Below, in pieces: positions 1 through 13,405 of a DNA stretch of 64,000 nt. A program made the translations under genes and the position numbers. Position 1 is the first letter of the stretch. Every line of letters starts with the position of its first letter. This DNA is from Nonomuraea angiospora (GTDB taxonomy: Bacteria > Actinomycetota > Actinomycetes > Streptosporangiales > Streptosporangiaceae), in assembly GCF_014873145.1 (NCBI RefSeq), contig NZ_JADBEK010000001.1, positions 1,736,001 through 1,800,000 on the forward strand, in the 5' to 3' direction. Under the pieces are notes generated by a model that worked only from the letters and a program-made list of their open reading frames with translations, searched no databases and was not told the origin of the DNA.

Positions 1-687
1 CTGGGGCCGACGACCCTGCCCCAGACCGGCTATCTCGGCAATCTCCTGCGCGGCTACGTGCCGCTGGGCGGGCTGAGCCCCCAGCATTTCCTCGGGCGCT
101 ACTGGGACTACGTCGTGAACAACTATCGTTTCCCGCCCGACGCCGGATTCGCCCGTTCCGGCGATTATCCCAACGGCAGGCTGCTGCTCAAGACGACGTT
201 TCTCCAGCCTGGCATGAGACTCGACCGTTTCGGCGGCTACACCGGGTCATTCTTGGCGCCCTTGGGCGACCTCTACACCAGACGCTCGCTGCCACCCCGG
301 AATCTCAACACCAACCCGCAGGATCCGGAGCACCTGTGCAACTATCATGCGTTCCGGGTGCTCAAGTCGTTCCGCGTCGACGTGGGCCCGGCGGCGCCCG
401 CCTTTGAGCAGCCAGGCGGCGGCACGCAATATCACGTGCTCAGCAAGTACATTCCCGAAGCTCCTCAGACCAGCGACGAAGTCCCGATCAGCTGGCTGCT
501 GCAGAACGGCTATCTGGAAGAGATCGAGCCGGTCACCGTAACCGACCTCGTTGCCGGCTATCCCATCACCAAAAGCGGCACAGTGAGCAACCAGAACACC
601 GCCGTCGGCCGCGTCACGACCCCGCGGACCATGAGCGTCAAGGCCGGCGGACACCAGCCGAGCCGGGCACTCGCCGGAAAGGTGTGA
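1..687 (+). CDS. TNT-type NAD+ glycohydrolase toxin domain protein, 5' end outside window
   Basis: The reading frame is open from base 1, so the N-terminus lies outside the window; a GTG at 58 is only an internal option. The visible 228 residues match the TNT domain (tuberculosis necrotizing toxin family, NAD+/NADP+ glycohydrolases). I see YRFPPDAGF, then PGMRLDRFGG with the family Arg and Tyr region, a RSLPP motif, a YHAFRVL strand and the glycine-rich QPGGGTQYHV motif holding the conserved Gln. The family normally hydrolyses NAD+ in target cells or phagocytes after export. About 50 residues of unrecognised basic tail follow the domain, which is unusual because TNT is normally C-terminal. 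No small immunity-type gene follows on the same strand; the next gene is convergent. The delivery domain cannot be judged here. Confidence 0.8.
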   Translation: MGPTTLPQTGYLGNLLRGYVPLGGLSPQHFLGRYWDYVVNNYRFPPDAGFARSGDYPNGRLLLKTTFLQPGMRLDRFGGYTGSFLAPLGDLYTRRSLPPRNLNTNPQDPEHLCNYHAFRVLKSFRVDVGPAAPAFEQPGGGTQYHVLSKYIPEAPQTSDEVPISWLLQNGYLEEIEPVTVTDLVAGYPITKSGTVSNQNTAVGRVTTPRTMSVKAGGHQPSRALAGKV

Positions 688-800: not shown

Positions 801-1715
801 TCATCGGACACGTGCGCCTGGGGTGCGGCGGAGTGGCCGTCTCCTCGGCGCGCTGACCACGCTCACCGGGCAGTGCGCTCGTTGCAGCACCCCACGGCTG
901 ACGGAGCCCAGCATCGCGGAGGTGAACCCACCGAGCCCGCGCGAACCCACCACCACGAGATCGGCGACCCGGGAGGCGGCCGCCAGGGCCGGAACGGGGT
1001 GCTCGTCGACGATCGACTCGATCAGCTCGACATCCGGGTATTTCTCCCGCCGGAGCGCCAGACGCCGTCCGATCTCATCGGCCTCGCCGACCGGCAACGG
1101 CCCGTACCCGACGGGGTGCGGAGCCGTGTACGGATATCGCCTGCCGTACAGGACCCGAAGGCGCGCCCGCCGGGCGACCGCCTGCGCCAGCGCGTACTCC
1201 AGCGCCATGTCCGCGCACGGCGAGGCGTCGTAGCCCACCACGATCTCCCCGCTGCCGTCGCGCGGGGGCCTCCTGACGACCACCACGGGGCTCTCGGCGT
1301 ACCCGGCGAGGCCGAACCCGACCGAGCCGAGCACCAGCCCGGCGAAACCGCCCAGTCCCCGGCTGCCCACCACGACGGTGTCGGCCGTCTCCGACTCGCT
1401 CCTGAGCCGCTCGATCACCGCCCCGGTGACCAGGGCCGTCGAGGTTCGCGCGCCGGGGGCGAGCTCGTGCGCGCGATCGGCCGCAGCCGCGAGCAGCCTG
1501 TCGCACCGCTCGGTCAGGGTCTCCTGGTCGCTCGATGCGCTGAGCGGACGCTCGGCCAGCCAGGGCTCGCGTACGTGGACGATGCGCAGCGGCAGCTCTC
1601 GGCGTCCGGCGTCGCCGGCGGCCCAGGCGAGCGCCGCCCACGCGGTCCGCGAACCGTCGACTCCCACGACGACCGCTCCGTTCATCGCCGCCCTTTCGCC
1701 GGTCCTCGTACTCAT
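801..1715 (-). CDS. Universal stress protein, tandem UspA domains
   Basis: The 304-residue protein has two UspA folds. The first starts VVVGVDGSRTAWAALAWAA near residue 14 and ends with the ATP-binding signature GSRGLGGFAGLVLGS; the second starts at IVVGYDASPCADMALEYAL and carries GSRGLGGFTSAMLGSVS. Both signatures fit G-x2-G-x9-G-S, so nucleotide binding is likely. Tandem USPs of this kind are cytoplasmic proteins of the actinobacterial hypoxia/dormancy response. It is divergent from a tiny membrane peptide, and two copies of the locus dyad lie between them. The start at 1715 includes a few extra residues; the second methionine (MNGAVVVGVDG) could be the true start. A similar USP lies at 3388-4230. 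Confidence 0.92.
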   Translation of the reverse strand: MSTRTGERAAMNGAVVVGVDGSRTAWAALAWAAGDAGRRELPLRIVHVREPWLAERPLSASSDQETLTERCDRLLAAAADRAHELAPGARTSTALVTGAVIERLRSESETADTVVVGSRGLGGFAGLVLGSVGFGLAGYAESPVVVVRRPPRDGSGEIVVGYDASPCADMALEYALAQAVARRARLRVLYGRRYPYTAPHPVGYGPLPVGEADEIGRRLALRREKYPDVELIESIVDEHPVPALAAASRVADLVVVGSRGLGGFTSAMLGSVSRGVLQRAHCPVSVVSAPRRRPLRRTPGARVR

Positions 1716-1771
1716 ATCTCCAGCTCACGCCCGGCGAGGCCACGTCTCCAGGGGAGGAAGTCCTCTCCGCG

Positions 1772-1816
1772 AGGGACCATTGGGCTCCACGACCGATACC
1801 CGGGACCTTCGCCTCT
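1772..1816. promoter_or_regulatory. Two DosR/OsdR-like dyads between usp and small membrane peptide gene
   Basis: The sites are AGGGACCATTGGGCTC at 1772-1787 and CGGGACCTTCGCCTCT at 1801-1816, 29 bp apart. Against the locus consensus AGGGACCTTCGGCCCT they score 11/16 and 13/16 by eye. They lie in the divergent promoter region, 56 bp upstream of the usp start. Binding by a DosR-type response regulator is inference. Confidence 0.5.
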
Positions 1817-1878
1817 GGTGCGACCGGTGGCCGGTGGCGTGGGCTGGAAGTGCCAGGTCTCCTCGGGAAGGGGCCGTC

Positions 1879-1971
1879 ATGGATTGGCCGCCTGTCGCGA
1901 TCGTCATCGTCTCCGTGATCCTGGGTGTGGCGGTCGTCGTCACGACGTTCATCGCCCGTCCCAGGAAGTAG
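1879..1971 (+). CDS. 30-residue single-pass membrane peptide
   Basis: The ATG at 1879 follows a purine-rich GGGAAGGGG about 5 bases upstream. The product is 30 residues: MDWPP, an unbroken run of about 19 hydrophobic residues (AIVIVSVILGVAVVVTTF), then the basic tail IARPRK. This is the form of a small inner-membrane peptide with positive-inside tail. The stop is followed after 3 bases by a perfect 11-bp hairpin, so the transcription unit looks complete: dyad sites, ribosome site, small gene, terminator. I do not recognise a family. Its place in the stress island suggests a role in membrane or respiratory adaptation, but this is inference from context only. Confidence 0.5.
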   Translation: MDWPPVAIVIVSVILGVAVVVTTFIARPRK

Positions 1972-1974
1972 ACG

Positions 1975-2002
1975 ACGCCCACCCCTTCCGAGGGGTGGGC
2001 GT
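1975..2002. terminator. Bidirectional hairpin between convergent genes
   Basis: The arms ACGCCCACCCC (1975-1985) and GGGGTGGGCGT (1992-2002) are perfectly complementary over 11 bp with a 6-base loop. The hairpin sits between the stop of the small peptide gene and the stop of doxX (opposite strand), so it can serve both. There is no T-run, as is usual in actinomycetes. Confidence 0.75.
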
Positions 2003-2015
2003 GGGGATCGCCAGG

Positions 2016-2540
2016 CTACCTGAGGTAGGGGTTACGCCGGATGATCGGGAGGTTGCCGAGTCCGAGGGTGGTTCCCGCGTCGGCGAGGGCGAGGCCGGCC
2101 AGGACGACGGAGTAGACGATGTGCTCGTCCATGAACGGGTTGTTGGCCAGGGGCAGCTCGGCCGCCCACATGAGAACCAGCATCAGGCTGCCGGTGACCG
2201 CGGCGATCCTGATCCCGACGCCCAGGGCCAGCGCCAGGCCGATGCCCAGCAGGCCGGCCATGAACAGCCAGTCCACCCACGGCTGCCCGGCCAGCGAGCC
2301 GAAGAAGCCGCCCAGCGCGTTCTCGCCGGTGCCCTTGAGGAACCCGGTCGTCGGGCTGCCTCCGGAGATCCAGGCGCGTTCGGCCGGGGTGGCTAATCCC
2401 CAGCCGAAGGTCTTGTCCAGGAACGCCCACAGGAAGATCCAGCCGATCGAGATCCGGGCGATCGCCCAGACGTAGCCGACGGGACGGCGTGCGGTGGCGG
2501 CGCCGGTCTGCGTGACGGGCCTGTTGACAGTGGCGGCCAT
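2016..2540 (-). CDS. DoxX-family membrane protein
   Basis: I chose the ATG at 2540 (MAATVNRPV) because AAAGGGGGC lies just upstream; a longer frame to 2579 has no such site. The 174-residue product has four hydrophobic segments, roughly at residues 25-45, 90-110, 115-135 and 145-162, and the DoxX-like start of the first helix, ARISIGWIFLWAFLDKTFGWG. DoxX/DoxD relatives are membrane proteins linked to thiosulfate:quinone oxidoreductase or to oxidative-stress complexes. A 50-residue extracytoplasmic loop (AERAWISGGSPTTGFLKGT onward) follows helix 1, which is typical of the thiosulfate-type DoxD subgroup. It lies downstream of the CBS-BON gene on the same strand, 94 bp away, and may be read with it. 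Confidence 0.8.
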   Translation of the reverse strand: MAATVNRPVTQTGAATARRPVGYVWAIARISIGWIFLWAFLDKTFGWGLATPAERAWISGGSPTTGFLKGTGENALGGFFGSLAGQPWVDWLFMAGLLGIGLALALGVGIRIAAVTGSLMLVLMWAAELPLANNPFMDEHIVYSVVLAGLALADAGTTLGLGNLPIIRRNPYLR

Positions 2541-2634
2541 GACGGCCCCCTTTCCATGGGAATCGATCGTTCTTGTCACACCTCAAGCACACCGTCCGTT
2601 GCTCGTGCTTGGGGTGCGGTTGCCGGACGGCCCT

Positions 2635-3291
2635 CTACATCCCCGAGGGGAGGATGAGGAGGTCGTCCTTGTCGAAGGTGATCTCGGATCTCACGTCCAC
2701 GACCCCCTCGATCAGCCGGATCTGCTCCGTCAGCGCGAGGGCCTGAGATTTCCACTCGACCACGCCGCCGATCGTCACCACCCCCTGGTGGATGCCGACG
2801 GTGAACGCCGCGGGATCCGGCAGGACGGCTCTGATGTCCGCGGCCAGTTCCTCGGCCGGACGGATGAAGACGCGCAGCACATCGCGCTGGTGGAGGGTGC
2901 CGACGATGCGCCCGGTGTCCATGTCGATCACGGGCAGTTGCTTGACGCGCTTGGCGTGCATCAGCCGGGCCGCGTCCCGCACCGAGGTGCCCGGCGTGAC
3001 GGTGATCACCGGGGAGGTCATCAGCTGAGCCGCCGTCACGCCCGCCGCCTTCCGGTGCTCCTGCTGCCGCCGGCGGGACTCGAAGATCGGCACGCCGAGC
3101 CTGACCGTGTCGGCCTCCTTGAGGAGCAGATCGTCTTCGGAGACGACTCCCACGGGCCGTCGGTAAGCGTCGATCACGGTGACCGCGCCCACCGCGAACC
3201 GCTCCATGGCCTCCACGATCTCGGTGAAGGAGGCCTCCTTCAGCACGGCGATGGCCACCCGGCCCATGATGTCCTTGACTTCGAGTGACAT
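2635..3291 (-). CDS. CBS-pair and BON domain protein
   Basis: The start at 3291 (MSLEVKDIMG) is set by GGAGGTGG seven bases upstream; a longer frame to 3369 would read through the hairpin leader. The 218-residue product has two CBS motifs (about residues 4-60 with VTVIDAYRRPVGVVSEDDLL, and 75-132 with QLPVIDMDTGRIVGTLHQRDVL) followed by a BON domain (about 140-205, with VTIGGVVEWKSQALALTEQIRLIEGVVDV as its core pattern). CBS pairs bind adenosyl nucleotides, and BON domains bind membranes or hydrophobic ligands. A cytoplasmic sensor of energy state near the membrane is a reasonable guess. Such genes are common beside USPs, as with the hypoxic response proteins of mycobacteria. Confidence 0.9.
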   Translation of the reverse strand: MSLEVKDIMGRVAIAVLKEASFTEIVEAMERFAVGAVTVIDAYRRPVGVVSEDDLLLKEADTVRLGVPIFESRRRQQEHRKAAGVTAAQLMTSPVITVTPGTSVRDAARLMHAKRVKQLPVIDMDTGRIVGTLHQRDVLRVFIRPAEELAADIRAVLPDPAAFTVGIHQGVVTIGGVVEWKSQALALTEQIRLIEGVVDVRSEITFDKDDLLILPSGM

Positions 3292-3314
3292 GACTCCACC
3301 TCCGCTTTCACGAT

Positions 3315-3353
3315 CTGCCGGAGCGGCCTGCTCCGGCAGTGGCCAACGTCCCC
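3315..3353 (-). promoter_or_regulatory. Leader hairpin and weak DosR-like dyad upstream of the CBS-BON gene
   Basis: CTGCCGGAG (3315-3323) pairs perfectly with CTCCGGCAG (3331-3339) around a 7-base loop, 24 bases before the CBS start codon. It can end usp transcription from upstream or act as an attenuator. Overlapping its outer edge, the minus strand reads GGGGACGTTGGCCACT (3338-3353), which matches the locus dyad at about 11/16. Confidence 0.45.
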
Positions 3354-3387
3354 GATGCCGGGTGACCAAGGTCCTGACCGGCGCTGA

Positions 3388-4230
3388 TCAGGCCCGGACC
3401 ACCGCCACCGGGCAGTGCGCGTGGTGCAGGACACCCCGGCTGACCGAGCCGAGCAGCATCGAGCCCACGGCTCCGCGCCCGTGCGAGCCCACCACCAGCA
3501 GGTCCGCCCGCTCGGACGCGTCGGTGAGCGCTTCGACCGGATGGGCGGACTGGACGTCCTCGACCACCTTCACCTCCGGGTGGTCATCGCTGAAGATCTT
3601 CACCCGGTCGCGGACGAGCTGATGCTGCGCCGTACGGATCTCGTCCATGTCGTACGCGATCTCCGGCGCGAAGGCGTGCACCGGCAGCTGCCAGGCGTGC
3701 ACCACCCGCAGCGTGCTCCCGCGCAGCTTCGCCTGCCCGAAGGCGTAGGCCAGCGCGGGCTCGCACTGCGGCGAGTCGTCCACCCCGACCACGACCTCCT
3801 GGAACACCGGCCGCCGCTCCCCGCGCACCACCACGACGGGACAGGGCACGTGGCCGGCCACTTTCATGCTGACGGAGCCCAGCAGCGCGCCGGCGAACCC
3901 GCCCAGCCCCCGGCTGCCGACCACGACCTCGGTGGCGTCCTTGGCCTGCTCACGCAGGACCTCGGCGGGCGAGCCCTCGACGTCCTCGGTCGTGACCTCG
4001 ACGGCGAGCTGCCGCTCGTGTACGAGCACCTCCGCCTCGCACAGGATCCTGCGCCCCTCGCGCCGCAGCGCGTCCGGGAGAGCGTCGATGGAGTATTTGC
4101 GGATCTGGTACGGCGAGCGGTCCACCGCATGGACGATCCGCAGCGGCACTCGCATCCGGAACGCGTCGTCGGCCGCCCATTCCAGCGCGGCGCGCGAATT
4201 CTCCGAGCCGTCGGCTCCTACGATGATCAC
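3388..4230 (-). CDS. Universal stress protein, tandem UspA domains
   Basis: The 280-residue protein starts directly with the first UspA strand, MIIVGADGSENSRAALEWA. Two nucleotide-binding signatures are visible, GSRGLGGFAGALLGSVS near residue 115 and GSHGRGAVGSMLLGSVSRG near 255, both of the ATP-binding type. It is a paralogue of the usp at 801-1715 and reads toward the CBS-BON gene 96 bp away. Its promoter region, shared with the divergent HTH-PPOx gene, holds the two best dyad sites of the locus, so it is the most likely direct target of the proposed hypoxia or redox regulator. Confidence 0.93.
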   Translation of the reverse strand: MIIVGADGSENSRAALEWAADDAFRMRVPLRIVHAVDRSPYQIRKYSIDALPDALRREGRRILCEAEVLVHERQLAVEVTTEDVEGSPAEVLREQAKDATEVVVGSRGLGGFAGALLGSVSMKVAGHVPCPVVVVRGERRPVFQEVVVGVDDSPQCEPALAYAFGQAKLRGSTLRVVHAWQLPVHAFAPEIAYDMDEIRTAQHQLVRDRVKIFSDDHPEVKVVEDVQSAHPVEALTDASERADLLVVGSHGRGAVGSMLLGSVSRGVLHHAHCPVAVVRA

Positions 4231-4281
4231 GATACGCCTCCTTCGTCACCTCCATCCCACCCGCTCGCGCCCGCCCGCAGC

Positions 4282-4319
4282 AGGGCCGGAGGTCGGTCCG
4301 GCAAGGGCCGAAGGACCCT
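4282..4319. promoter_or_regulatory. Tandem DosR/OsdR-like dyads in a divergent promoter
   Basis: On the minus strand 4304-4319 reads AGGGTCCTTCGGCCCT, 15/16 to the locus consensus, and 4282-4297 reads ACCGACCTCCGGCCCT, 13/16. The two sites start 22 bp apart, close to two helical turns, which suits cooperative binding of dimers. They lie 52 bp upstream of usp and 57 bp upstream of the HTH-PPOx start. Confidence 0.6.
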
Positions 4320-4375
4320 GTCCGCCGAACGGGCGGCTGGCTAGCTTCGTGGACATGACGAGGGAGGACGCACTC

Positions 4376-5023
4376 ATGACCGGTACCGGCGACTTCGGGC
4401 GTCGCATCAGCTACCACCGTCACAGGCTCGGCCTCACCCCCGGACAGGTGGCCGACCGGGCGGACATGTCCGCCGGATACGTCCAGCACCTCGAAGGCCA
4501 TCTGGGCACTCCTGACACGGGCACGGTGACCCGCCTGGCCGCCGCCCTCGAGACGACGGTCGAGGACCTGCTGGGCGGCGGGCGCGACCGACCGCCCGGC
4601 CCCGGATCCGGCGCGGCCGACGCGGTCCTGGAGGTGCTCGACCCCGAGGAGTGCCTGCGGCTGGTCGCGCCGGGCGGGATCGGCCGGGTGGCGTTCAACG
4701 GCCCGGAGGGGCCCACGGTGCTGCCGGTGAACTACAAGGTCCACGACGGCGCCATCGTCTTCCGCACCGCCCACGGCGGCCCCATGGACCAGGACCTGCG
4801 CACCGGTGCGGAAGGGGTGGAGATCAAGATCGGCTTCCAGGTCGACCGGATCGACGAAGCCCGGCGGGAGGGCTGGAGCGTGCTCGTCCAGGGCCCCGCC
4901 CACCACGTGCCCGAGGACGAGGCCGTCCAGGCCGACGTCACCCCGTGGGCGGGGGGCGAGCGCCGGCTCTACATCCGGATCATCCCGCACCGCATCACGG
5001 GCCGCCGCATCCACGGCCTCTGA
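4376..5023 (+). CDS. HTH (XRE) and pyridoxamine 5'-phosphate oxidase-like flavin protein
   Basis: The ATG at 4376 has GGGAGG eight bases upstream; an ATG at 4355 lacks a ribosome site. The 215-residue protein has an N-terminal XRE helix-turn-helix (residues about 5-65, LGLTPGQVADRADMSAGYVQHLE) and a C-terminal split-barrel of the PPOx/FMN-binding type (about 85-210, GRVAFNGPEGPTVLPVNYKVHDGAIVFRT). The fold binds FMN, F420 or heme in relatives. Fusion with an HTH suggests a redox-sensing regulator. A PPOx-like gene next to a triacylglycerol synthase is also found in the DosR regulon of Mycobacterium tuberculosis. It converges with the WS/DGAT gene, 11 bp away. Confidence 0.88.
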   Translation: MTGTGDFGRRISYHRHRLGLTPGQVADRADMSAGYVQHLEGHLGTPDTGTVTRLAAALETTVEDLLGGGRDRPPGPGSGAADAVLEVLDPEECLRLVAPGGIGRVAFNGPEGPTVLPVNYKVHDGAIVFRTAHGGPMDQDLRTGAEGVEIKIGFQVDRIDEARREGWSVLVQGPAHHVPEDEAVQADVTPWAGGERRLYIRIIPHRITGRRIHGL

Positions 5024-5034
5024 GCAGCCCCGCC

Positions 5035-6429
5035 CTAGGTCCTCCTCCGGCTCGGGCTGAGCTCCTCCAGGGCCTCGCGCAGGTAGCCGGGAAAGGCCCA
5101 CACGTCGGGAACCAGCTCCCCGCAGGCGGTGAACCCGACGTCGAGGCGCCCGTCGTAGGAGAAGGCCGTGATGTTGACGGCGCCGCTCACGTCGGTGACC
5201 ACGGACACCGGGTAGTGCGCGAGCAGCCTGACCCCGGCGATCCGCAACGGGAACTGCGGGCCCGGAACGTTGGAGACGACCACGTTGACGGGCGGCCCCG
5301 TACGCCCCAGAAGATCAAGCGCGGCGCGGTCGGCCAGGCCGTTCAGGGCGGCGGGCATGCTCTCGCTCAGGTCACGCAGCAAGCGCGCGGGGGTCAGGGC
5401 GAACCGTTCCTTGAGCTGCCGCATCCCCTCGCTCACGAGTTCGAGCCGCCTGCGGGGATCGTCCACGTGCGTGGGCAACGGTGTGATCATCATGGTGACC
5501 TGGTTGCCCTCGTTCACGCCCTCCTGGCCGCGTACGGAGAACGGCACCCCCGCGACCAGGGGGATCTCCGGCAGCGCCGCGTGAGCCAGCAGCCAGCGCC
5601 GCAACGCGGAGGCCGCGAGCGCCATCACGACGTCGTTCACCGTGACGCCGAAGGCGTTCTTGACCCGTTTGATCTCCTTCAGCGACAGCTCGGCGAAGGC
5701 GTAACGGCGGCGGGAGGAGACCGGGCCGCTGAGCGGGGTGTGCGGGGCCTCCAGGTCCGGCAGTTCGGGCCGGGGTTCACGCCGGATCAGCCGCGCGACG
5801 CCGCTCGCGCCGGGCAGCCGGGAGATGACGGGGAGCTGGTCCAGCACCGGCAGGGCCTCCCCGGCGAACCGCAGCAGGTGCGCGGGATTCCCCGCGAGGT
5901 GCCAGGCGCTCCTGGCCAGCATGCGCCACAGCCCCGGAGGGGCTTCGAGCTCGTACGAGGCCGCTTCGGGCACGGGATCCATGAGCGCGGCCAGCACCTC
6001 CGCCCCCGTGAGCCCGTCGACGGCGGCGTGGTGGACCTTGGCGTAGATGCCGCAGCGGCCCCCGGCCAGGCCGTGGATCAGGTACATCTCCCACAGGGGA
6101 CGGCTCCGGTCCAGCCGGCGCTCGTGCAGGCGGGCCACCTGCTCGCCCAGCTGCTCATCGTCGCCCGGAGGGGGCAGGGTGAGCTCCCGGACGTGATGGT
6201 CCAGGTCCACCTCGCCCTCGTCGGCCCAGTACGGGTGGTCCAGGCCGAGGGGCACGTGGACCAGGCGCTGGCGTAGCTGCGGCACCCCGGCCATCCGCTC
6301 CGCCAGCCTGCGCTGGATCCTCTTCCTGGACAGGTCCTTGTACAGCACGGCCAGGCCGCCGACGTTCGCGACGTTGGTGGCGGTCTCGAAGTTGAGGAAC
6401 TGCGCGTCCAGCGCGCTGAGCTGCCGCAT
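5035..6429 (-). CDS. Wax ester synthase / diacylglycerol acyltransferase (WS/DGAT)
   Basis: I chose the ATG at 6429 (MRQLSALDAQFLNFET) after the purine-rich GGTGGGGGGAG. The 464-residue product is full length for bacterial WS/DGAT. The active-site motif HHxxxDG is present as KVHHAAVDGLTG near residue 133, and the C-terminal PLRIAGVRLLAHYPVS region is typical. The enzyme joins acyl-CoA to diacylglycerol or fatty alcohol at the membrane, giving storage triacylglycerol or wax. In actinobacteria this marks entry into hypoxic or non-growing states. It fits with the USP, CBS and PPOx neighbours. A weaker copy of the locus dyad lies 31 bases upstream of its start. Confidence 0.95.
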   Translation of the reverse strand: MRQLSALDAQFLNFETATNVANVGGLAVLYKDLSRKRIQRRLAERMAGVPQLRQRLVHVPLGLDHPYWADEGEVDLDHHVRELTLPPPGDDEQLGEQVARLHERRLDRSRPLWEMYLIHGLAGGRCGIYAKVHHAAVDGLTGAEVLAALMDPVPEAASYELEAPPGLWRMLARSAWHLAGNPAHLLRFAGEALPVLDQLPVISRLPGASGVARLIRREPRPELPDLEAPHTPLSGPVSSRRRYAFAELSLKEIKRVKNAFGVTVNDVVMALAASALRRWLLAHAALPEIPLVAGVPFSVRGQEGVNEGNQVTMMITPLPTHVDDPRRRLELVSEGMRQLKERFALTPARLLRDLSESMPAALNGLADRAALDLLGRTGPPVNVVVSNVPGPQFPLRIAGVRLLAHYPVSVVTDVSGAVNITAFSYDGRLDVGFTACGELVPDVWAFPGYLREALEELSPSRRRT

Positions 6430-6459
6430 GTCTCCCCCCACCTCAGGCGGGCTCGCTAC

Positions 6460-6475
6460 AGGGACCGCTACCCCT
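6460..6475 (-). promoter_or_regulatory. Weak DosR-like dyad upstream of the WS/DGAT gene
   Basis: AGGGACCGCTACCCCT matches the locus consensus at the outer positions (11/16). It lies 31 bases upstream of the WS/DGAT start. Its score alone is poor; the position and company make it worth listing. Confidence 0.35.
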
Positions 6476-6673
6476 CATCCCACCGTGCGTCACCGCGCCG
6501 CCCCGACGCAAACGGATCCGAGGGGCTGAGAGCGGGACGGAACGGGCCTGGCGCGAGCGACGCGCGACCTCCTATGGAGACGCCGGAGAGCAGTATCGCG
6601 CGGCCAGAGCCCACCCTGTCAGAACGGTGGGACGTCGCACGCACCTGACCCGCTTGCGCCAACCCTACATTAC

Positions 6674-6687
6674 TGTAAGTATTTACA
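6674..6687. promoter_or_regulatory. TGTAA-N4-TTACA operator-like palindrome upstream of the ABC operon
   Basis: TGTAA (6674-6678) and TTACA (6683-6687) form a perfect dyad, nested in a second pair TTAC (6670-6673) and GTAA (6690-6693). This is an A/T-rich island in GC-rich DNA, 110 bp before the first gene of the peptide-type ABC importer. No regulator gene is adjacent. The rest of 6476-6796 holds no gene that I can support. Confidence 0.5.
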
Positions 6688-6796
6688 AGGTAACCCATTG
6701 TGCATGATCCCTCCAGGAGGCGCCTCCGCCGGGCGGCGAGGTCCCGATCACCGGCCTCGGCGCGCTCGCCAATCCCCTCACGCCCAGGGAGGCCCC

Positions 6797-10169: not shown

Positions 10170-11146
10170 CGCCGCTGCTCGCGGTCGACGACCTCACGGT
10201 CGAGTTCGCCACGCGGGAGGGCGTGCTGCGCGCCGTCGACGGAGTCAGCCTGGAGGTGGGGCCGGGCGAGATCCTCGGCGTGGTCGGCGAGTCCGGCTCG
10301 GGCAAGAGCGTGACCGCGATGTCGGTGCTCGGCCTGGTCCGGCCGCCGGGGCGGGTGGTGCGCGGCAGCGTCCGCTTCGACGGCGAGGACCTGCTGGCCC
10401 TGCCCGCGCGCCGGCTGCGCCGGATCCGGGGCCGCCGCATCGCGATGATCTTCCAGGACCCGATGACGGCGCTCAACCCGGTCGTCCCGGTCGGCGCCCA
10501 GATCGCCGAGGCCATCAGGCTGCACCAGCCGCGCCTCGGCCGCGCCGCCGTGCGGGCCCGCGTGCTGGACCTGCTGGCCTCCGTCGGCGTCGCCGACCCC
10601 GCCGGCCGGTACGGCCGCCACCCCCACGAGTACTCCGGCGGCATGCGCCAGCGGGCGATGATCGCGATGGCCCTGGCCAACGAGCCCGACCTGCTCATCG
10701 CCGACGAACCGACGACCGCGCTGGACGTCACCGTCCAGTCCCAGGTGCTCCGCCTGATCGACACGGCCAGGCGGGAGGCCGGCGCGGCGGCGGTGCTCAT
10801 CACCCACGACCTGGGCGTGATCGCCGAGCTGGCCGACCGGGTCGCGGTCATGTACGCCGGCCGCGTCGTCGAGCACGGCGACGTGCACCAGGTCTTCGCC
10901 ACGCCCCGCCACCCCTACACGCGCGGCCTGCTGTCCAGCCGTCCCCGCCTGGAGCCGGCGACGCGGGACCTGGTGCCGATCCCGGGCAGCCCGCCCGACC
11001 TGCTGGCGCCGCCGCCCGGCTGCGCCTTCGAGCCGCGCTGCGCGGTGGGCGCCGGCCGCGCCGCCTGCCGGTCGGAGCGTCCCGAGCCGGTCGCGGTGGC
11101 CGCCGGTCACCTGTCGGCCTGTCATTTCCACGAGGAGCAGGTGTGA
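10166..11146 (+). CDS. ABC importer ATPase, DppD type
   Basis: The ATG at 10166 overlaps the previous stop by 4 bases. The 326-residue protein has Walker [11 protein letters not shown] (about residue 40), the Q-loop [11 protein letters not shown], signature [12 protein letters not shown], Walker [15 protein letters not shown] and the H-loop ITHDLG. The C-terminal oligopeptide-transporter extension is present, with the cysteine pattern [16 protein letters not shown] that in relatives can hold an iron-sulfur cluster. Confidence 0.94.
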
Positions 11147-12174
11147 GCAAACCCGTGCTGGCCGTCGAGGGCCTGGTCAAGCACTTCCCGATCCGTACCG
11201 GTGCCCTGCGCGGGCGGACCGGCGCGGTCCGGGCCGTGGACGGCGTGGACCTGGCGCTGCACTCCGGCCGCACCCTCGGGCTGGTCGGCGAGTCCGGCTG
11301 CGGCAAGACCACGACGGGCCGGCTCGTCGTGCGCCTGGCCGAGCCCACCTCCGGCCGCATCCTGTACGGCGGGCGCGACCTGGCCGCCCTGTCGCCCGCC
11401 CGGCTCAGGCCGCTGCGCGGCGAGATCCAGATCGTCTTCCAGGACCCGTACGCGTCGCTGTCGCCGCGGCTGACCGTGCACGAGATCGTCGCCGAGCCGC
11501 TGCGCACCCAGGGCCGCTACCGCCGCGGCGGCCGGGCGCGGGTCGGCGAGCTGCTGGAGCTGGTGGGCCTGTCGCCCGAACACGCGGGCCGCTATCCGCA
11601 CGAGTTCTCCGGCGGCCAGCGCCAGCGCGTCGGCATCGCCAGGGCGCTGGCCCTGAACCCGCGCGTGCTGGTGCTGGACGAGCCCGTCTCGGCGCTGGAC
11701 GTCTCGATCCAGGCGCAGGTCGTCAACCAGCTCGCCCAGCTCCAGCGGGAGCTGGGCCTGGCCTACCTGTTCATCTCGCACGACCTGTCGGTCGTGCGGC
11801 ACCTGTGCGACAGAGTGGCGATCATGTATCTGGGCCGGATCGTGGAGGAGGGCGAGCGGGCGGAGATCTTCGCCCGGCCCGCCCACCCCTACACCAAGGC
11901 GCTCATCTCGGCCGTGCCGATCTCGTGCCCGTCGCAGCGGGGCGGGCGCAGGCGGATCGTGCTCGCCGGTGACGTGCCCAGCCCGGCGAACCCGCCGTCG
12001 GGTTGCCGCTTCCGTACCCGCTGCTGGAAGGCCCGGGAGCGGTGCGCCGTCGAGGAGCCGGAGCTGACCGGCGCGGGGCATCGCGTCGCCTGCCATTTCC
12101 CCGAGGAGAGCACCAGGCCCGGCGTAGGACCGGGAGGTGTCATTTGGGCTGGTCGTCGCTCCAGCCCGCCTTGA
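11143..12174 (+). CDS. ABC importer ATPase, DppF type, with altered C-terminal tail
   Basis: A GTG at 11143 overlaps the DppD-type stop. Walker [11 protein letters not shown], signature [12 protein letters not shown], Walker [14 protein letters not shown] and H-loop ISHDLS are intact, and the C-terminal [14 protein letters not shown] motif is present. After CHFPEES the last 20 or so residues ([18 protein letters not shown]) do not look like family sequence; they are read through DNA that is antisense to the end of a broken neighbouring gene. The normal 3' end was probably replaced when that neighbour was rearranged, but the enzyme core is whole. Confidence 0.92.
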
Positions 12175-12381
12175 TCATCGCGGTGGAGTTCCACATCGTG
12201 CCGGGCTCGAAGCCGGCAGCGCCGGCTCGGGCACGTCCTCCAACCGCCGCCAGGCGATCGCGAACGTCTCGCTCACCACCTCGTCCGCCACCTGGCGGCC
12301 CGCGCGGCTCACGACGTAGGCCCACACCCGTTGCCGGCATTCGTCGTACATGCCGGTGAACCGGTGCTCATCATCTGACAC
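12140..12381 (-). pseudogene. ECF sigma factor remnant fused to the tail of another gene
   Basis: From a GTG at 12381 the frame reads SDDEHRFTGMYDECRQRVWAYVVSRA then DEVVSETFAIAWRRLEDVPEPALP, clear sigma-70 region 2 of an ECF factor. After PALP homology stops in that frame. In another frame the DNA continues as [23 protein letters not shown] and stops at 12140, which looks like the C-terminus of a different protein, perhaps the partner gene of the sigma factor. Sigma region 4 is missing, so the gene is dead. The join lies near 12215. Its end overlaps the 3' end of the DppF-type gene. Confidence 0.7.
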
Positions 12382-12463
12382 CGCCCAGCCCCTTCGTTCG
12401 GGATGCGTTCTTCTGACACCACGAAGTGGCCGCAACCCTCCCGTTGTTACACCCCTTTCGGGA

Positions 12464-13405
12464 TCAGCTGATCGGGACGGTGAGGCGGCGTCTGGCGGGT
12501 GACGGCTCCCTGCGCTCGCCGAGGAGGGTCATGAGCTGGTCCATGGCCACCTCGCCGAGCTTCTCGCCGTCCACGTCGATCGCGGGGACGTCGCCCAGGC
12601 CGAGGCTCTCGACGATCATGCGCTCCGAGCTGACCACGACGTCGCGGATCCCGCGGTGGAGCAGGGCGAACATGAGGCCCAGGCCGATCGAGGTGGCGTA
12701 CGGGACCACGGCGGTGGCGCGGGCGGCCAGCACGGCCTCCGCCGTCTCCACCCCGGCGGCGAACGTCGAGGGGTAGGGGCCGAGCATGGTCAGCGTCGCG
12801 CCGCTCGCCCCGGCCGCGGCGCGGATGGCCGCCTGGCGCTGGCGGTCCTGCCAGGAGCCCGCCGGGCCGCCGATGTAGACGATGCGCTCGTGGCCCATCT
12901 CGACGAACCGGGACACGAGCGTGCCGAAGGCGGTGGCCGTGTCGGCGACCGCGGAGGTCATGCCCTCGATCTCGCGGTCGATGAGCACGGTCGGCTTGAA
13001 CGACGCGGCGGCGCGGACGATCTCGTCCGAGCCCCGCGGCGCGGTGAGCAGGAAGCCGTCGACCTGGTGCGCGAGCTGCTCGACCGCGGCGACGTGGGCG
13101 GCGTGCTCCAGGGAGTGCACCGCGATGGTCAGCTGCATGCCCGAGTCGGCCGCGCGCGCCTGGGCGCCGCCGATGATCGGGGTGAAGAAGGTGTTGTCGA
13201 GCGTGGGCACCACGACGGCGACCACCCCGGTCCGCCCGCGGGCGAGCTGCGTGGCCGCCCGGTTGGGGACGAATCCGAGCTGCTCGGCGGCTGCGCGGAC
13301 GCGGGCCACCGTCTCCGGGGCGGCCAGGTCCGGCCGGCCCAGGGCGCGGGAGGCCGTCGCCTTGGAAACCCCGGCCAGCGCGGCGACGTCCGCGAGTGTC
13401 GGCAC
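12464..13405 (-). CDS. LacI-family transcriptional repressor
   Basis: A GTG at 13405 follows AAGGAGG; the product is 313 residues. The N-terminus has the LacI helix-turn-helix PTLADVAALAGVSKATASRALGRP with hinge helix FVPNRAATQLARGRTG, then a periplasmic-binding-protein-like effector domain (VVAVVVPTLDNTFFTPIIGGA onward). It is divergent from the ABC and adenosine-deaminase operon, and two AACCGGTT palindromes lie at the start of that operon. It very likely represses the operon until a nucleoside, purine or amine ligand binds. The effector is unknown. Confidence 0.93.
   Translation of the reverse strand: MPTLADVAALAGVSKATASRALGRPDLAAPETVARVRAAAEQLGFVPNRAATQLARGRTGVVAVVVPTLDNTFFTPIIGGAQARAADSGMQLTIAVHSLEHAAHVAAVEQLAHQVDGFLLTAPRGSDEIVRAAASFKPTVLIDREIEGMTSAVADTATAFGTLVSRFVEMGHERIVYIGGPAGSWQDRQRQAAIRAAAGASGATLTMLGPYPSTFAAGVETAEAVLAARATAVVPYATSIGLGLMFALLHRGIRDVVVSSERMIVESLGLGDVPAIDVDGEKLGEVAMDQLMTLLGERREPSPARRRLTVPIS

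Follow-up and report, generated by a model that had tools for sequence, protein, structure and literature searches.

Genes of the Island and Its Probable Regulators

Near the left end of a 64,000-nucleotide stretch of the genome of the soil actinomycete Nonomuraea angiospora (hereafter the window; it covers bases 1736001-1800000 of a single contig of 13.09 Mb) lies an island of genes that very probably belongs to a low-oxygen regulon of the DosR/OsdR type. Nonomuraea is a genus known for antibiotic producers. From left to right, the island encodes a double-domain universal stress protein, USPa (801..1715, minus strand, with a start at 1715 or about 1683; Pfam Usp in two stretches, 1e-45); a DoxX-like membrane protein (2016..2579, minus, start at 2579 or 2540); a CBS-BON protein (2635..3291, minus; Pfam CBS 5.7e-24 and BON 1.4e-6); a second double-domain universal stress protein, USPb (3388..4230, minus; Pfam Usp 6.9e-59); HTH-PPOx, in which a helix-turn-helix (HTH) domain, HTH_31, is joined to Pyridox_ox_2 (4355..5023, plus; 2.8e-9 and 5.4e-25); and a WS/DGAT-family acyltransferase (5035..6441, minus; TIGR02946, 428 bits for a cut-off of 310). 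An earlier note, made from the sequence alone, had given the genes these identities, and the Pfam search agreed, confirming the two double-domain USPs, CBS+BON, HTH_31+Pyridox_ox_2 and WS/DGAT, with DoxX slightly under its cut-off (22.7 and 23.6 bits, respectively). Read by eye, both USPa domains carry the G-2x-G-9x-G-S signature linked to ATP binding. Among solved chains, USPb is nearest to 2jax (TB31.7) and 3cis at 120.6 bits, the following chain reaching 50.9, and this is one likeness to Mycobacterium tuberculosis. The genes, regulators, dyads, pairing and conservation described below were all computed directly.

The earlier note had found no regulator gene inside the island. The statement holds for the window, but simply because its left border falls 1.05 kb past a DosR-type response regulator gene, dosR1 (genome 1734307-1734948, plus strand), which lies 1.85 kb from the end of the USPa gene. 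Compared with solved structures, DosR1 is closest to DevR (3c3w, 264.8 bits over residues 1-212), with VraR second at 154.2 bits; a receiver and a NarL-type HTH domain span its full length, and in the alignment its DNA-binding region is nearly the same as that of DevR. A second copy, DosR2 (1961478-1962116), is 92% identical to DosR1 and lies 0.23 Mb away, so that the DosR-type regulator that the note had proposed to look for is present twice. Other full-length matches were at most 45% identical and HTH-only matches at most 54% over 59 residues, among the matches listed (150 of the 259 candidates were scored).

Beside dosR1, also to the left of the window, are a histidine kinase gene (1731833-1733533, minus) and a PPOx gene (1733675-1734193, minus). 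Pfam finds GAF_2, GAF_3, HisKA_3 and HATPase_c in the kinase, the tandem-GAF arrangement of DosS and DosT. Its first GAF domain scored 179-182 bits against the DevS heme-domain chains; against 2vzw, taken here to be DosT although the record itself names only a probable histidine kinase, it scored 172 bits. The equivalents of His149 (proximal heme) and Tyr171 (distal) are kept, and the domain is predicted from its sequence to bind heme. At the position of DosS Glu87, both Nonomuraea kinases have Gly, as in DosT (the second kinase was read from an alignment). Glu87 has been proposed to make DosS redox-sensitive and Gly to allow a stable oxy complex in DosT; the review that reports this deems the evidence unsettled (PMC4082495). 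No NCBIfam family scored above its cut-off for the regulator (among the best 25 of 93 families) or for the kinase (all 10). The second pair, DosS2/DosR2, spans 1959711-1962119; around it (1957126-1964810), nitroreductase-like, PPOx-like, CBS and USP genes were recognized, partly by eye.

Candidate DosR Dyads in the Window

Six sites in the island had been reported to resemble a 16-bp dyad, AGGGACCTTCGGCCC, said to agree with the OsdR/DevR motifs of streptomycetes. The dyad does fit the 16-bp OsdR palindrome of Streptomyces coelicolor, AGGGCCGATCGGCCCT, and AGGGACCTTCGGCCC itself appears at SCO0167 and SCO0216 in Table 1 of the OsdR study (PMC5069765). The sites matched the 16-mer in 15 (4304), 13 (4282), 13 (1801), 11 (3338), 11 (1772) and 11 (6460) of 16 bases, and the tandem of 15/16 and 13/16 at 4282-4319 was exact.

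Sites were scored with three matrices. The Table-1 matrix was built from the 26 S. coelicolor OsdR sites of Urem et al. 2016 (PMC5069765). A first genus matrix came from sites near 38 DosR genes in 28 other Nonomuraea genomes. Since its training included promoters orthologous to those of the island, we relied on a leave-out matrix, retrained on 102 distinct sites without the 400 bp upstream of the USP, DoxX, CBS-BON, HTH-PPOx and WS/DGAT relatives. At position 5 the genus matrix favors A (0.53) over C (0.32).

The four best leave-out scores in the window, at 4304 (14.8), 3361 (14.2), 3338 (13.6) and 1801 (12.0), all fall in intergenic DNA of the island, and the fifth site scores 10.6. None of 2000 permuted dyads matched this placement of all four, and one placed three. 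OsdR/DevR-type dyads thus precede island genes at three places. In the divergent USPb/HTH-PPOx promoter, the strong candidate 4304..4319 (-89 of USPb, -51 of HTH-PPOx) ranks first with both the leave-out and the Table-1 matrix (Table-1 score 13.2). Its weak partner 4282..4297 (-67 to USPb) scores 7.0 and ranks 27 with the leave-out matrix and 21 with the Table-1 matrix; all 16 of its bases are identical in a second Nonomuraea genome (L249), while the spacer differs in parts, and a site of at least 7 was found at -66 to -72 in all 11 USPb-type promoters examined. Upstream of the CBS-BON gene lie 3338..3353 (-62; Table-1 6.6, rank 26) and 3361..3376 (-85; Table-1 1.2, rank 321), the latter a strong site that the earlier note had overlooked. 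The third place is 1801..1816 (Table-1 3.7, rank 113), 78 bp before the start of a micropeptide gene described below. Four of the six reported sites were therefore retained, 4304, 3338 and 1801 by score and 4282 by position and conservation.

The other two were dropped. As a stand-alone site, 1772..1787 is unsupported (leave-out 5.5, rank 55; Table-1 5.8, rank 38), and 6460..6475 scored -0.9 (rank 539) and 1.8 (rank 249), respectively. A weak dyad before doxX (2619..2634; leave-out 7.3, rank 25) may exist. A dyad belonging to USPa is unproven here; among USPa-type promoters, 6/10 had a Table-1 site of at least 9, and the promoter in the window is one of the four that did not.

Sites and Site Pairs across the Genome and in Relatives

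The regulator gene is itself preceded by sites, at 1734150 (17.0) and 1734256 (15.1), and a Table-1 site of at least 9 was present in 23/37 DosR1-type promoters. The earlier note had asked whether a matrix would hit the rest of the genome with equal frequency. It did not: leave-out matches of at least 12 numbered 6 in the 12 kb of DosR1 and the island, 7 in the 9 kb of DosR2 and 7 in a 29-kb USP stretch, as compared with 13 in 719 kb of sampled control. For the Table-1 matrix at the same threshold, the counts were 3 at DosR1/island, 3 at DosR2, 2 at the USP locus and 7 in the control. In the DosR loci of the 38 relatives, this Streptomyces matrix gave 44 non-coding matches of at least 12, while 60 permuted dyads averaged 2.4 and never exceeded 10. 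The third locus, the USP stretch (7775000-7804000), holds, by eye, CBS-BON, Hsp20-like, A/V-type ATPase-like and P-type ATPase-like genes.

Many sites come in tandem. We searched for sites 20-24 bp apart, both scoring at least 7 and one at least 11. Nine pairs were found in the 184 kb searched, all spaced by 22-23 bp and all within the DosR1/island, DosR2 and USP loci, with none in the 720-kb control. Two are in the window, 3338/3361 (23 bp) and 4282/4304, and three each are at the DosS2/DosR2 locus and the third, USP locus. In the relatives' DosR loci, 62 of the 122 inter-site spacings between 10 and 80 bp were 22 or 23 bp. Counting the genes of the window, paired sites were seen upstream of 8/8 CBS-BON, 8/11 USPb and 6/10 DoxX genes. 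The doxX gene of the window is among the four DoxX genes with an unpaired promoter, and it is not among the 8/10 that carry a site of at least 11. DevR of M. tuberculosis is known to bind a strong and a weak neighboring site cooperatively in the divergent tgs1-Rv3131 promoter (PMC3029386), and the 4304/4282 layout resembles this arrangement.

Gene order varies among the 38 relatives' DosR loci, with DosS, PPOx, nitroreductase, USP, CBS-BON and DoxX relatives recurring. An HTH-PPOx relative was found in all 29 same-genus genomes that have DosR; in at least one genome (L097), a second HTH-PPOx copy carries sites. In one Nonomuraea relative (L123), pyruvate-formate-lyase-like and activase-like genes were recognized by eye beside DosR (10396-13382), with sites at 10334 and 13409.

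The WS/DGAT gene fared differently. Only one of the 38 relatives' DosR loci has a WS/DGAT relative, at 33% identity. Upstream of the gene in the window, the genus matrix found no site of at least 6, and the Table-1 matrix only one of 8.6 at 6534. The L249 genome has an 83% identical orthologue in a similar neighborhood, with a site of 17.8 located 221 bp before its start. With no credible upstream site in the window, we rejected WS/DGAT as a shown member of the regulon and call it an island neighbor.

A Conserved Membrane Micropeptide

The dyad at 1801 precedes a 30-codon open reading frame on the plus strand (1879..1971 including the stop; codons 1879-1968) encoding a membrane micropeptide with a hydrophobic core, MDWPPVAIVIVSVILGVAVVVTTFIARPRK, which has no Pfam match at E<=1. 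A search of 200 family genomes returned 17 matches at E<=0.05. Twelve of these, including that of the window, had E<1e-4 and were peptides of the same kind; the five weakest were set aside as chance after inspection. L123 supplies one further copy, for 13 in all. Among six copies, the proportion of synonymous differences (pS) exceeded that of nonsynonymous differences (pN) in 15/15 pairs, over about 22 synonymous sites.

Sites upstream of these genes are less uniform. A site of at least 11 lies at -75 to -78 in 4/13 copies (the window, L228, L229 and L234). L123 has one of 8.6 at -75, L233 has 15.7 at -146 and 10.9 at -90, and L235, L236, L237 and L239 have scores of 8.2-9.4 at -91 to -94. In L231 there is only 9.8 at -177, and L232 and L238 show no upstream site of at least 8. 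DosR was found in 12/12 micropeptide genomes tested, a co-occurrence that is uninformative because 182 of the 200 family genomes have DosR. Our guess is that the micropeptide could belong to a membrane complex as a small subunit.

A Probable DosR/OsdR-Type Regulon in Nonomuraea

The data above favor, with a probability we put at roughly 90%, a model where the island is part of the DosR/OsdR-type low-oxygen regulon of Nonomuraea, as a further instance of a system already known. The dormancy-regulon reading of the earlier note thus stands for the island as a whole, with its regulator next door and a low-oxygen response that would be expected from its relatives, but not for 1772, 6460 and WS/DGAT. 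Beyond that reading, the analysis adds the regulator and its duplicate, site 3361, the pairing rule, the micropeptide, and the rejection of the two sites and of WS/DGAT membership.

Several findings weigh against this assignment. The Nonomuraea matrices drew their training sites from the surroundings of DosR genes, and the leave-out training still contained the micropeptide promoters of L119 and L123; as these were not left out, site 1801, the only one on which this bears, is less independent than the other top sites. The genome background was a sample of 36 stretches of 20 kb (about 720 kb) and not a whole-genome scan. In the window, only 4304 stands out with the Table-1 matrix, the remaining three of its top four lying outside the island, and its 43 coding matches in the relatives' loci are no more than permuted dyads can give (mean 21, maximum 71). 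When the pair criterion was relaxed, one pair each at 21, 24 and 37 bp turned up in the control, those at 21 and 24 bp being close to the spacing of the island pairs. Simple ambiguity-code (IUPAC) patterns showed no genome-wide enrichment, GGGACNNNNGNCCC occurring 195 times and its reversed control 443 times, and GGGMCNAANGKCCC 8 and 16 times, respectively. One could accordingly imagine that the island is a chance or loosely shared neighborhood of stress genes and that its dyads belong to the GC-rich intergenic background, as the reported sites 1772 and 6460 (2/6) do. Such crude patterns, however, tell only where matches lie, and 4/8 matches of GGGMCNAANGKCCC fall in the DosR1/island, DosR2 and USP loci. 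The permuted-dyad and own-genome controls contradict a background origin, and paired sites at fixed distances from gene starts are conserved in relatives, with 4282 unchanged in L249. We regard this explanation as extremely improbable.

The dyads might also be real and be read by another response regulator of the NarL/LuxR type, DosR being a mere neighbor. The DosR query gave 151 matches in the genome, mostly other receiver or LuxR-type HTH proteins. No DosR was found at E<=1e-60 in 10/39 same-genus genomes (one only 63% complete), and 5 of these 10, one with a partial match, have kept an HTH-PPOx relative. Only 10/26 DosR-bearing genomes have a site of at least 11 within 300 bp upstream of their best HTH-PPOx copy. 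None of the four copies from genomes without DosR (best copy per genome) had such a site, though 16/26 with DosR were also siteless, and these numbers are too small to count. Another regulator is nevertheless very unlikely, given the agreement of the dyad with the published OsdR consensus, a DNA-binding region nearly that of DevR, and the confinement of all nine tandem pairs to the DosR1/island, DosR2 and USP loci. DosR is absent from only 18/200 genomes in the family; the higher proportion within the genus suggests that Nonomuraea may have lost the system repeatedly.

If control by DosR is accepted, the rest of the scheme is what we infer: DosR binding and activation, which gas is sensed, what the proteins do, and whether the two copies cross-talk. 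The kinase with the heme-type GAF domain (1731833-1733533) would be kept off with O2 bound; a fall in O2, or binding of nitric oxide or carbon monoxide, would let it phosphorylate the adjacent DosR (1734307-1734948). Dimers of phosphorylated DosR might then occupy a strong dyad and, cooperatively, its neighbor two helical turns (22-23 bp) away, activating USPb, HTH-PPOx, CBS-BON, the micropeptide and probably doxX. The DosS2/DosR2 pair presumably reads the same sites. A broader proposal is that the DosR regulon of Nonomuraea and related Streptosporangiaceae induces a family of single-helix membrane micropeptides of 27-42 residues, which would adjust a membrane complex to low oxygen, and that two duplicated regulator/kinase pairs read this regulon by way of a tandem dyad with a strict two-turn spacing; this is tentative, and we hold it as possible rather than probable.

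The arrangement recalls OsdR/OsdK of S. coelicolor (SCO0204/SCO0203), where a DevR-type regulator is likewise joined by a DosS/DosT-type kinase and surrounded by USP, nitroreductase and PPOx genes (PMC5069765). In contrast to S. coelicolor, Nonomuraea has two regulator/kinase copies and a genus matrix favoring A at position 5, and its predicted targets include CBS-BON, the HTH-PPOx fusion, DoxX and the micropeptide; a 22-23 bp pair rule was not seen in the parts of the OsdR account that were consulted (PMC5069765). The regulator and heme-GAF kinase are also related to those of M. tuberculosis (PMC4082495, PMC3029386), whereas gene order differs, Gly replaces DosS Glu87 in both kinases, and WS/DGAT is without a credible site. 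No DosR regulon of Nonomuraea or Streptosporangiaceae, and no such micropeptide, appeared among the papers listed in a literature search that left subscription journals mostly outside its reach. A dormancy regulon known from mycobacteria and Streptomyces would thus extend to Nonomuraea, with enough promoters to formulate the 22-23 bp site-pairing rule. Candidate targets can be named in the HTH-PPOx fusion, CBS-BON and a conserved micropeptide that matches no Pfam family, and the natural regulator/kinase duplicate offers a setting for measuring cross-talk.

Neighboring Features

Between dosR1 and the island, the window encodes a TNT-domain protein (58-687, plus strand; PF14021, E 9.4e-30), and the first genus matrix lists no site of at least 10 in the 470 bases upstream of this gene. 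To the right of the island, at about 6663-6690, an A/T-rich imperfect dyad lies upstream of a gene recognized by eye as solute-binding-protein-like and, likewise by eye, has the look of another operator.

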